Assembly: GCA_007129405.1 (NCBI GenBank)
Contig: SKVN01000041.1
Coordinates: 1-42,171 of the forward strand
DNA from: Kiritimatiellia bacterium
Lineage (GTDB): Bacteria > Verrucomicrobiota > Kiritimatiellia > UBA8416
Reading direction: 5' to 3'
DNA: 42,171 bases
In this document: piece by piece, positions 9,321-33,780 of the stretch
Position numbering within the stretch: the stretch's first letter is position 1
Layout of the letters: every line of letters begins with the position of its first letter
Notes under the pieces: generated by a model
What the model saw: the letters and a program-made list of their open reading frames with translations, nothing else
Database searches by the model: none
Told to the model about the DNA's origin: nothing
Position numbers and translations under genes: made by a program

Positions 9321-9426
9321 TTACACACTTACTCGCCTACACTTAATCCCCTACACTTACTCGATATTATGAGCACTGACTTTCGAGTAAGTGTAAGCGA
9401 TCAAGTGGTTCCGATTAAGTGTAAGT
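9321..9426. repeat. Symmetrical array of six 14-bp repeats (three facing three)
   Basis: Left arm: three contiguous 14-mers at 9321-9334, 9335-9348 and 9349-9362, each containing ACACTTA followed by CTC or ATC. Right arm: three contiguous 14-mers at 9385-9398, 9399-9412 and 9413-9426 in the opposite orientation (GAGTAAGTGTAAGC, a degraded GATCAAGTGGTTCC, GATTAAGTGTAAGT). The central gap is 9363-9384. The innermost units form a perfect 13-bp inverted repeat (TACACTTACTCGA at 9352-9364 against 9383-9395). The second left unit matches the outermost right unit over 11 bp (9338-9348 against 9413-9423). It lies upstream of the NSS gene. Confidence 0.85.
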
Positions 9427-29586: not shown

Positions 29587-32151
29587 ATGAAAATCTTTGT
29601 CCTTGTCTTCTTTTCCGGTTTTGCCGGCCTTGTATATCAAGTGCTTTGGATGAAGCAACTCGGGTTGCTTTTCGGAAGTACGGCGCATGCTGCCGCCGCC
29701 ACGCTAGCATGCCTCTTTGCCGGATTTTCACTCGGAAGCTGGTTTTGGGGTCGGCGTGCAACCCAAACAGCAAATGCGTTACGTCTCTATGCTACACTCC
29801 AATTGGGCATCGCAATAACCGCCATTTTCTATTTTGGCATTCTGCAGGGCTATTACCGAATCTATCCTTTCTTCTACCAACATATCCACTCGCGCCCGTT
29901 ATTGCTTGCCGTTAAATTCCTACTGACGTCCCTCCTCATCTTTCCGCCCGCGTTCTGCATGGGTGGCACCCTGCCCGTGATTGGACAATATTTAATTAGC
30001 AAGCGCAATGTCTTCGGTGTCACTGCCGCGCGCGTGTACGGGATCAACACGCTTGGCGCTGCCCTAGGCGCCTTTATGGCAGGCTTCTTCTTGCCGCTCT
30101 GGTTTGGCTTCCGATTCACCTTTCTCGGCGCCATGATCATTAGCGCAGGCGTCGGGCTACTGGCCTTTTCCATTGCAAATCGAAACCGATCAGTGCATAC
30201 CGATCACCCCCTGCCTCCGCCACAGGAACCACCCGCTCCGAAGCATACAGCACACCACGCCACGGCGCGGCGCGGGCGCTGGTCCATCTTGCCACTTTGC
30301 TTTATCTCCGGATTCGCGTTTCTGGCTCTTGAAGTTCTCTGGACGCGCATGTTTGGACAAGTGCTCGAAAATTCGGTCTACACCTATTCTACCATTCTTG
30401 TTATCGTACTGATCTGTCTGTCCGCTGGCGCACTGATCAGCTCGTGGCTATCCCGCACCCGCATATGCCCGTATTTAATGCTTACCGCGCTTACCTTGAT
30501 GAGTGGAGTCGCCATTGCACTCACGCCCTTTGTGCTGATGCACCTGACCGACAATCTACAAATTATTGCCTTTCGCGGGTCATGGGCGGCGTACATCCGT
30601 TTGGTTTTTCGACAGGGATTCATGACGTTCGGACTCCCCGCTTTGCTTGCAGGTACCATTTTCCCTCTTTTGATGAAGGCCGAGGAACGGTACGCCGAAT
30701 CCGCCGGCAAAAGCCTTGGTCGTATGACGGCGGTTGACACGGCTGGCTCCATTCTCGGGGCATTGCTCTGCGGCTTTGTGTTTTTGGAATGGTTCGGCAT
30801 GTGGCGTACGATGCAAGCGATCGCCATCCTGTACCTCGCAGCATCCTTTTTCCTGCCATTTGCCTGGGACAAACGCGGCATTCCAATCAAATGTACAAGT
30901 GTTCTGGTCATCATACTCGTTTTTACCAGTTTGGATCCCACGCACCTTCCCATCACTAGTATTGACCCATTGCGCGATCCCGAAGAAGTACTGCAAACCT
31001 GGGAAGGACGCGATGTCACGGTTGCGGTCACGAAAGACCGCCATGGATTGGCCATTAAAATCAATTCCCACTACGGCCTCGGCTCCACCGGATCCTACAT
31101 GCAATCGCGCATGCAAAATGATATTCCCTTATTTGCCTATCCGGAAACCGAAACGATCTTCTTTCTCGGAATGGGGTCGGGTATCACCGCGGGCGGTGCA
31201 TTAGATCCGCAATTCCCCAACCCCCGCCGTATCATCACGGCCGAACTCATCCCCGAAGTTATCGAAGCGGCCCGAACCTTCTTCACCGACTATAATGATT
31301 TTGATTATACCGGTGGGCTTTTTGAGGATCCAAGATCGACAATTCTGGCAGAGGATGGAAGACATTTCCTGATGGCATCCGGACAAACATTCGACATGAT
31401 CAATTCCGATCTCTTTGTGCCCTTCCGCATCGGTGATGGAAATCTATATAGCAAAGAGCATTTTGAAAGCGCCAAACGCAGTTTGAATCCAGGTGGCGTT
31501 TTTGTGCAATGGTTGCCACTCTACATGATGACCGAATTTGAGCTTTTTGTTATCACGCGAACCATGCTCGAAGTCTTCGAGCAGGTTTCGCTCTGGCGGG
31601 GCAACTTCCAGCCGTTCGAGGAGGTAATCGCACTCGTTGGTCATACCCCACCCTTTGTGGTTCCACCATCACGGCTGGACGGTCTGGCAGATCGTCGGGC
31701 AGCCGTTGCAGGGCGCACACATCGCGATCTGCAGCATTTAGCGCTCCCTCTCGATGCACAAAACATCATGTTTTTTTATGCCGCCAATGTGACAGCTTCG
31801 CGCGAGCTGTTTGACGATTATCCTGTCAATCGCGATGATCATCCGTTAATCGAATACATGGCCCCGCGCACGTATCGCCAGGAAACGGACGGGCCGACCC
31901 CCTGGTTTGTCGGACCCCGCATCTTGCGATTCATTGAGGAACTTCAGCGACGCTGCCCGCCCCATCAGGATCCACTCCTCGCCGGGCGTTCCCCGCAAAC
32001 AAAACGTCTACCACTGGCTGGTACTGCATTCCATCGGGCGAACATCTGGGAAAGGCTCGGTCACGAACCCGGTTTGCAAGACGAATGGCAACGTTTTGTC
32101 TCCCACTGGACCAGCCAACATACAGACGGAAGACCGAAGACTGAAGACTGA
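29587..32151 (+). CDS. Membrane-fused spermidine-synthase-like protein
   Basis: Large protein of 854 residues. The N-terminal half (about 1-450) has about a dozen hydrophobic segments in an MFS-like pattern beginning MKIFVLVFFSGFAGLVYQVLW. The C-terminal half (about 460-700) is a spermidine-synthase-like domain: LGMGSGITAGGAL for the SAM-binding loop, TAELIPEVIEAAR, and DGRHFLMASGQTFDMINSDLFVP. These 'fused MFS/spermidine synthase' proteins are common in PVC bacteria; whether they make polyamines is not established. The ATG at 29587 precedes the conserved TM1; an earlier Met at 29545 is upstream of it. The 3' end carries a heptamer repeat that provides the last residues and stop. Confidence 0.85.
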   Translation: MKIFVLVFFSGFAGLVYQVLWMKQLGLLFGSTAHAAAATLACLFAGFSLGSWFWGRRATQTANALRLYATLQLGIAITAIFYFGILQGYYRIYPFFYQHIHSRPLLLAVKFLLTSLLIFPPAFCMGGTLPVIGQYLISKRNVFGVTAARVYGINTLGAALGAFMAGFFLPLWFGFRFTFLGAMIISAGVGLLAFSIANRNRSVHTDHPLPPPQEPPAPKHTAHHATARRGRWSILPLCFISGFAFLALEVLWTRMFGQVLENSVYTYSTILVIVLICLSAGALISSWLSRTRICPYLMLTALTLMSGVAIALTPFVLMHLTDNLQIIAFRGSWAAYIRLVFRQGFMTFGLPALLAGTIFPLLMKAEERYAESAGKSLGRMTAVDTAGSILGALLCGFVFLEWFGMWRTMQAIAILYLAASFFLPFAWDKRGIPIKCTSVLVIILVFTSLDPTHLPITSIDPLRDPEEVLQTWEGRDVTVAVTKDRHGLAIKINSHYGLGSTGSYMQSRMQNDIPLFAYPETETIFFLGMGSGITAGGALDPQFPNPRRIITAELIPEVIEAARTFFTDYNDFDYTGGLFEDPRSTILAEDGRHFLMASGQTFDMINSDLFVPFRIGDGNLYSKEHFESAKRSLNPGGVFVQWLPLYMMTEFELFVITRTMLEVFEQVSLWRGNFQPFEEVIALVGHTPPFVVPPSRLDGLADRRAAVAGRTHRDLQHLALPLDAQNIMFFYAANVTASRELFDDYPVNRDDHPLIEYMAPRTYRQETDGPTPWFVGPRILRFIEELQRRCPPHQDPLLAGRSPQTKRLPLAGTAFHRANIWERLGHEPGLQDEWQRFVSHWTSQHTDGRPKTED

Positions 32152-32156
32152 AGACC
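32129..32156. repeat. Four tandem heptamers (GAAGACY) spanning a stop codon
   Basis: GAAGACC, GAAGACT, GAAGACT, GAAGACC in a row. They encode the last residues of the upstream gene and contain its TGA (32149-32151). Since 7 is not a multiple of 3, gain or loss of a unit would change the C-terminus. Confidence 0.85.
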
Positions 32157-32184
32157 TTCAATTCGGTCAATCAGGTCAAGACCC

Positions 32185-33780
32185 TCATGCTCCCGTATTC
32201 TGGGCATAGGCGCGATGCTCCGTGCGTGCTAATTCGGCCAGCAGTTTTTTCAGCATGGCCGTAACGATAGCAGCGTAAGCTGGATCATCAGCTACATTTC
32301 GCAGCTCATCGGGATCCTCCCGCCGATCAAACAGCAGCGTTTCCTGTGTCGGTGCGTAATAAACAAGCTTGTAGTTATTTGTAACCAGTGATCGCATTTG
32401 CAAGGCTCGAAAAGGCCCTTTCACCCAGTCTAGTTCGATCAAGGCATTTTTGCGAAAAGGAGGCACGCCGTGTTTAAGCACAGGTGTTAAAGCCTCCCCC
32501 GGCAAGGCAGGTTCGGGAACCGTGCCCGGCTCATCACAATGGGCTGCGCGAAGCGTGTCATCCGGATGCGGCACACCCGCCAGATCCAATACCGTCGGAA
32601 CGAGATCCAACTGGCTCACAACATCCTCGATGATATTTCCCGCATGCTGACAACCAGGGACCTTGGCAATAAAGGGAATATGTGCATGCGCATTGAACGG
32701 AAAGATACCCTTGTAGAACAAGCCATGCTCCCCCAGTTGATCGCCATGATCAGAAATAAACATAACGACGGTATTGTGGACCTGCCCTGTTTCATCCAGC
32801 GCATCGAGCACCCGGCCAATCTGTTCGTCGATATGCGAAATCATCCCATACGTCTGCCGGATACATGCGCGCGTCCAATCCGGATCAAACACCTCTTGTC
32901 CAACCCCAAGCTGCCGTAAGGCGTCGCAGTGATTATCGCGACTTAGTTGCACCGAATGCTCCGGTAGCGATATTTCCAGATCCGTGTATACGTCTGCCCA
33001 TTTCTGTACCGCTGCAAAAGGCTCATGTGGATCCGGAAACGAACACCAAATATAAAATGGTTGCGCAGAGCCTTCGCGACACCCGACACCCGACACTTGC
33101 TCACCATCACCCGTCACCAGACAACTGGCCGCCGAAATGTGATCCCGGATAAATGCAATCGTCCGATCTGCAATCCAGTGATTGTAATGCAACTCCGGAT
33201 CAATCGTGAGTGCCTTGGGATGATCATGCCGATATCGATACCCTTCATATGCCCCCGGATGCGCCTTCTCCAGCCATGTCACATAATCACCATAGGCATA
33301 ATTTACATGCCCGTTACAGACGTCTAACGTCTGGTAGCCGTAATAATTATCCGGAAATTCCTTGTAATGCTTGCCTTCCCAATGCCCCGGCCAATCCCAG
33401 TAGATACGTCGCTCGGGATTCAAGCTTGTATCTTCATCCGGCGCAATCGTTCGACCACCCCATATCTTATGATGCAATTTCCCGACGGCATGCGTTCGAT
33501 AGCCAGCATCTGCCAGAATGCCGGGCAACGTGGGGATGGTTTCATCGAGATGGATGCCATTGGTATAAACACCAGACGCACGGTTCGTGAGCCCCGTGAG
33601 CATCGTAGCGCGAGCAGGCATGCAAACCGGACTTGAACTAAAACAATTGCGAAACAGTGTACCTTCAGATGCCAGACGATCCAGATTCGGCGTCTGCACA
33701 TGCGGATGTCCCATGCACCCGAGATGATCACCCCGCTGCTCATCCACGCAAAAGATCAAAAAATTGGGACGCTGTTTCAT
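32185..33780 (-). CDS. Cys-type (S1 family) arylsulfatase-like sulfatase
   Basis: Hydrolyses sulfate esters, probably from sulfated polysaccharides. The protein has 531 residues. The formylglycine motif C53-M-P-A-R (CxPxR) is intact, so it depends on an FGly-generating or anaerobic sulfatase-maturating enzyme, not seen here. Calcium/metal ligands are suggested by D13/E14 (CVDEQRGDHLG) and D344/H345 (SDHGDQLGEHG). No signal peptide is visible (MKQRPNFLIF runs directly into the first beta strand), so a cytosolic location is suggested. The start is supported by GAGGAG seven bases upstream. Residues 222-235 come from a 42-bp heptamer array. The 3' end is 33 bp from the convergent upstream gene's stop. 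Confidence 0.93.
   Translation of the reverse strand: MKQRPNFLIFCVDEQRGDHLGCMGHPHVQTPNLDRLASEGTLFRNCFSSSPVCMPARATMLTGLTNRASGVYTNGIHLDETIPTLPGILADAGYRTHAVGKLHHKIWGGRTIAPDEDTSLNPERRIYWDWPGHWEGKHYKEFPDNYYGYQTLDVCNGHVNYAYGDYVTWLEKAHPGAYEGYRYRHDHPKALTIDPELHYNHWIADRTIAFIRDHISAASCLVTGDGEQVSGVGCREGSAQPFYIWCSFPDPHEPFAAVQKWADVYTDLEISLPEHSVQLSRDNHCDALRQLGVGQEVFDPDWTRACIRQTYGMISHIDEQIGRVLDALDETGQVHNTVVMFISDHGDQLGEHGLFYKGIFPFNAHAHIPFIAKVPGCQHAGNIIEDVVSQLDLVPTVLDLAGVPHPDDTLRAAHCDEPGTVPEPALPGEALTPVLKHGVPPFRKNALIELDWVKGPFRALQMRSLVTNNYKLVYYAPTQETLLFDRREDPDELRNVADDPAYAAIVTAMLKKLLAELARTEHRAYAQNTGA
33076..33117. repeat. Six heptamers forming an in-frame 42-bp insertion in the sulfatase gene
   Basis: On the - strand: GTGACGG, GTGATGG, TGAGCAA (degraded), GTGTCGG, GTGTCGG, GTGTCGC. 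The 42 bp encode 14 residues, V222 to R235, between a helix (AFIRDHISAA) and the conserved strand PFYIWCSFPDPHEPF of the sulfatase. Confidence 0.85.

Follow-up and report, generated by a model that had tools for sequence, protein, structure and literature searches.

A short in-frame array of the heptamer GTGTCGG lies within an intact sulfatase gene of a Kiritimatiellia bacterium (GCA_007129405.1, contig SKVN01000041.1, positions 1 to 42,171, hereafter the window), where an array of this repeat family was probably inserted or grew in place and was kept because it preserves the reading frame, is free of stop codons, and sits in a tolerant surface loop. The features concerned are collected in Table 1.

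Table 1. Features of the sulfatase gene and of its repeat-bearing loop (window positions).
Feature	Position	Strand	Remarks
Sulfatase gene, intact	32185..33780	minus	531 aa; PF00884, E=2.4e-48
Helix-to-strand loop expansion, 22 aa (66 nt)	33067..33132 (approximate)	minus	measured against outgroup sulfatases
Exact GTGTCGG array, 20 bp, 2.9 units	33077..33096	minus	in-frame translation VSGVGC
Spacer TGAGCAA (counted as the third unit by the first-pass annotation)	33097..33103	minus	1/7 match in register
Two degenerate units, GTGACGG GTGATGG (probable)	33104..33117	minus	11/14 matches to GTGTCGG

The gene product belongs to the sulfatases, scoring 165.4 bits against PF00884 (cut-off 25), matching SGSH_C as well in profile searches, and carrying the C-x-P-x-R formylglycine motif as CMPAR at residue 53; C53, R57, D13, K101, H103, D344, H345, and K357 are invariant in the alignment of sulfatase orthologues. 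In an AlphaFold model derived from a shallow alignment of eight sequences (mean pLDDT 67.5), insert residues 220-238 form a low-confidence loop (pLDDT < 50), preceded by a helix (195-219) and followed by a strand (242-248), in agreement with the placement between helix and strand proposed by the first-pass annotation of this sequence. The best-matching solved sulfatases align as far as residue 104 or 152 and resume at residues 237-239, the insert remaining unaligned between these points. In the sulfatase fold, the end of strand 242-248 that receives the insert is presumably the one facing away from the active site.

Read on the minus strand, the exact array consists of GTGTCGG GTGTCGG GTGTCG (TRF: 2.9 copies, 100% match), with the two degenerate units upstream of it within the gene. 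These units are probably genuine, because only 0.012% of the 14-mers in the window match GTGTCGG equally well and because GTGACGG adjoins GTGTCGG elsewhere in the same genome (C108:4499). Six 7-bp units had originally been counted here; the period-7 array is real and in frame, but its copy number was overstated, as the six registers give 6, 5, 1, 7, 7, and 6 matches of 7 to GTGTCGG. Six GTG-initial words are present at spacings of 7, 6, 8, 7, and 7 nt, the third unit being GTG-initial only if spacings of 6 and 8 nt are allowed. The array is composed of head-to-tail 7-bp units beyond chance expectation, and the window holds two lag-7 runs of at least 13 matches against 0.005 expected from Markov-shuffled windows. 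GTGTCGG contains no stop codon in any of the six frames, a property shared by about half of all heptamers. The other of the two runs is a GAAGACN array (32122..32158, plus strand) that extends across the 3' terminus of a neighbouring 868-aa ORF, stop codon included; it does not belong to the sulfatase insert and serves as context only.

Comparison with other sulfatases points to an insertion at this site. From helix to strand, the four outgroup sulfatases have 26 residues and the orthologue L006 has 27, compared with 48 in the window sulfatase and 43 and 59 in the orthologues L005 and L004, respectively; the difference of 66 nt from the outgroups replaces the 42 bp first given for the insert. 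The inserted segment is missing from all four outgroups in the alignment, and the extra residues are unrelated among the window sulfatase, L004, and L005. In view of the 22 extra residues relative to the outgroups, and of the low-confidence loop modelled at residues 220-238, the expansion appears to be an insertion. The nearest orthologue lacking it (L006) shares only 56% identity with the window sulfatase, and the single same-genus genome has no orthologue of the gene. That the segment is instead an ancient functional loop, whose DNA looks repetitive by chance, would be in keeping with the natural length variability of this site in sulfatases; we nevertheless regard it as highly improbable, given that the outgroups have no such residues and the orthologues have different ones at the same place. 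The comparison with sulfatases lacking the insert, which the first-pass annotation had recommended, thus came out in favour of insertion, and the observation that it had named as fatal to the idea, namely homologues encoding the same residues by unrelated codons, was made in none of the homologues compared.

The loop has been filled by repeats in other sulfatases as well. Two orthologues (64% and 61% identity) hold unrelated repeats in it: ATTCCGC-type units broken by a palindromic element in L004, and a 10-mer repeat in L005. Three AATGCGG arrays in the L004 flank belong to the repeat family found in the L004 insert, and that genome contains further ones. Likewise, two paralogous sulfatases of another genome, G030, hold heptamer arrays in the helix-strand loop, one (L103:6885-8378) with GTGTCGG on the other strand, translated as PRHPTPDTRH, and the other (L103:1430-3952) with GGAATGC-type units, translated as RNAERGM. 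In the latter gene, the loop insert is accompanied by a second, separate heptamer insert close to the C-terminal domain. Among 97 sulfatase-like ORFs collected by profile search and scanned, four heptamer arrays were detected, three of which lie in the helix-strand loop; the associated probability of clustering (P ~5e-4) is a guide only, as the 25-aa target was picked post hoc. Judged from these sequences, the loop is a recurrent landing place for different repeats in orthologues and paralogues, and the 10-mer of L005 shows that it accepts ordinary local duplication too. The window sulfatase comes from a metagenome bin that is 76% complete and split into 203 contigs, a setting in which an assembly artefact might be suspected; such an origin is extremely improbable, since the frame is open across 531 aa and inserts of this kind are found at the same loop in bins obtained independently by other projects.

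Beyond the sulfatases, repeats with a period of seven are widespread in these genomes. Exact period-7 arrays of at least 19 bp number 8 in the 401 kb sampled from the window's own genome, 13 in the 320 kb from G030, and 10 in the 314 kb from G029, compared with mostly 0-5 arrays for each other single period that is not a multiple of seven in the same three samples. The sampling was partly aimed at GTGTCGG matches, and with the aimed and GTGTCGG arrays removed, 4, 6, and 7 period-7 arrays are left (own genome, G030, and G029) vs. averages of ~0.4, 0.7, and 1.3 per other period, the counts being drawn from samples and pattern searches. Many heptamer families are present, and most 14-, 21-, and 28-bp repeats of the own genome can be read as strings of heptamers. 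In nearly all families each unit includes at least one GT (AC on the opposite strand), a feature noticed post hoc, as was a possible preference for GT as the start of the unit. Three consecutive copies of GTGTCGG are present in 7 of the 57 relatives, the reversed control giving none, and, in a phylum-wide search, in 7 of 289 genomes. Another genome of the same class, G083, is matched 17 times by the heptamer in reversed form (GGCTGTG x3); given its richness in this pattern and the phylum-wide figure, the notion that GTGTCGG is uniquely special among heptamers was dropped.

The window's own genome harbours GTGTCGG-family sequence at three places (C45, C108, and C194), of which C108:4499 is a mixed GTGTCGG/GTGACGG array immediately 3' of a stop codon. 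The search for arrays outside genes, also suggested at the outset, was therefore successful in the own genome, and in relatives as well, whose GTGTCGG arrays appear, as read by eye, to lie mostly between genes or at gene edges in a sample that is ~86% ORF. Because both states occur within one genome, and with outgroups lacking the segment, the original suggestion that an intergenic-style repeat became protein sequence is supported. Local replication slippage alone, wherein a chance 7-bp duplication grew to three units without any link to arrays elsewhere, could draw on the 10-bp duplication in the L005 loop and on the general over-representation of heptamers among bacterial simple repeats (PMC4692102); it is unlikely to be the whole explanation, however, because GTGTCGG turns up again at unconnected sites of the own genome and among the relatives, together with GTGACGG variants.

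Several further genes carry such arrays in frame. In the own genome, HydF contains in-frame GTCTGTG, GTGTCGG, and GGTTGAT units together with a palindrome and is ~40 aa longer than solved HydF, and in-frame arrays are likewise found in a GH3 enzyme and a CusB-like adaptor. A PdxB-like dehydrogenase bears one inside its NAD-binding domain, a multihaem cytochrome and an O-antigen-ligase-like protein have arrays of their own, and a GH95 enzyme of the L004 genome (L206:1-1932) accommodates ~110 residues of in-frame heptamer mosaic between its catalytic and C-terminal domains. The in-gene status of these arrays rests on Pfam, solved structures, and alignment, codon-usage scoring having missed the window and HydF genes as coding, and some arrays near gene ends may reflect misread starts. 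Other in-gene arrays measure 24, 29, or 32 bp. None of these lengths corresponds to a whole number of heptamer triplets, so that the earlier argument from exactly six units and 42 bp is not supported and selection would act on the total length of an insert and not on the number of its units. A phase-variable switch, as raised by the first-pass annotation, in which gain or loss of heptamers toggles the sulfatase off and on, might be envisaged, since adding or removing a single unit is predicted to end the protein early, 26 or 48 codons past the array start. It is very unlikely here, given that the perfect tract has fewer than three copies and degenerate neighbours, that no strain variants were found (the one same-genus genome lacking the gene), and that the similar in-frame inserts in unrelated enzymes (HydF and the PdxB-like dehydrogenase) argue for tolerance as opposed to switching.

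Other repeats accompany the heptamers in these genomes. A 27-bp palindrome or hairpin, GTCCKCCGWAGCYTTRGCGAAGGMGGA (GTCC...GGMGGA; L116-L147), is found in 17 of 57 relatives (control, 0), shows matching changes in both arms, sometimes lies in or beside heptamer arrays, and is sometimes read in frame. Hairpin-like palindromes occur within the related inserts L004, L056, and L129 and are absent from the window sulfatase gene. Homologues of Y1 transposases are present in the own genome. Direct repeats of the CGAGTAAGTGTAGG type, spaced 14 or 28 bp apart, lie at window positions 9325-9363 and at L046, L056, L060, L083, and L092, and form clusters throughout the own genome, with 24 of these spacings counted in 0.4 Mb; they are possibly binding sites.

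Insertion or growth of a GTGTCGG-family array in the sulfatase gene can be pictured as follows. The family is among the many with a period of seven that this PVC-group lineage contains, and an array would have entered the gene, or expanded within it, by insertion or seeding, with slippage as the presumed amplifier. Purifying selection would have removed frame-breaking cases, retention requiring that the total added length, partial units and flanks included, be divisible by three; the lack of stop codons in six frames would have made the array survivable in a gene. Having fallen in a surface loop that leads from a helix to a strand running toward the active site, the array would have added disordered residues at almost no cost, and its effect on the enzyme is presumably near-neutral. 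A more far-reaching proposal, that an active process of this lineage, with a built-in seven-nucleotide step, keeps seeding tandem heptamers of diverse sequence into spacers and genes, as single or mosaic arrays and often with a hairpin, and thereby steadily lengthens protein loops, is regarded as doubtful.

One would expect coding sequence to lose repeats whose unit is not a multiple of three; in the genomes described here, they are kept inside conserved enzyme domains. The helix-strand loop seems to be a site at which repeat DNA can be turned into protein harmlessly, and, filled several times by unrelated repeats, it offers a natural set of independent insertions for studying the route from non-coding repeat DNA to protein, the protein sites that take up such DNA, and the preference for a step of seven bases.

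Among known systems, the S1 sulfatases with solved structures (choline-sulfatase 7oz8 and sulfatase 9ihk) share the family and core motifs of the window protein and align on both sides of the insert, the alignment stopping before it and resuming at residues 237-239, after the repeat. Rickettsia palindromic elements and intragenic REPs, the latter reported for the verrucomicrobium O. terrae as well, are found in frame in unrelated protein genes and are tolerated there (PMC10969869, PMC3733652), and the sulfatase array resembles them as repeated DNA inserted in frame and tolerated; nevertheless, those elements are palindromic hairpins, whereas the array of the sulfatase is built of direct tandem units and shows no palindromic pattern. 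The tandem repeats in Borg ORFs are similar in that nucleotide tandem repeats give rise to disordered protein segments (PMC9879509), although the in-ORF units of Borgs are all divisible by three; with a unit of seven, each copy shifts the frame and the whole insert restores it. A literature search for the repeat sequences themselves returned no match, and the closest parallels are the TAACTGA heptamer repeats of Beggiatoaceae, cyanobacteria, and Bacteroidetes (PMC4679880) and the GGGNATC heptamer repeats of Xanthomonas and Nostoc (PMC4692102). Both are made of 7-bp head-to-tail units, occur in many copies per genome and sporadically across distant lineages, and lie mainly outside genes, with some in ORFs. 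The studies in question describe one dominant heptamer family per genome, whereas many families coexist and mix here; furthermore, one strand of TAACTGA encodes stops, and where this repeat lies in genes it is mostly found at protein ends (PMC4679880), unlike GTGTCGG, which is stop-free on both strands and is also found inside conserved domains. With these distinctions, the sulfatase array is read as a variant of the already known heptamer repeats of bacteria.
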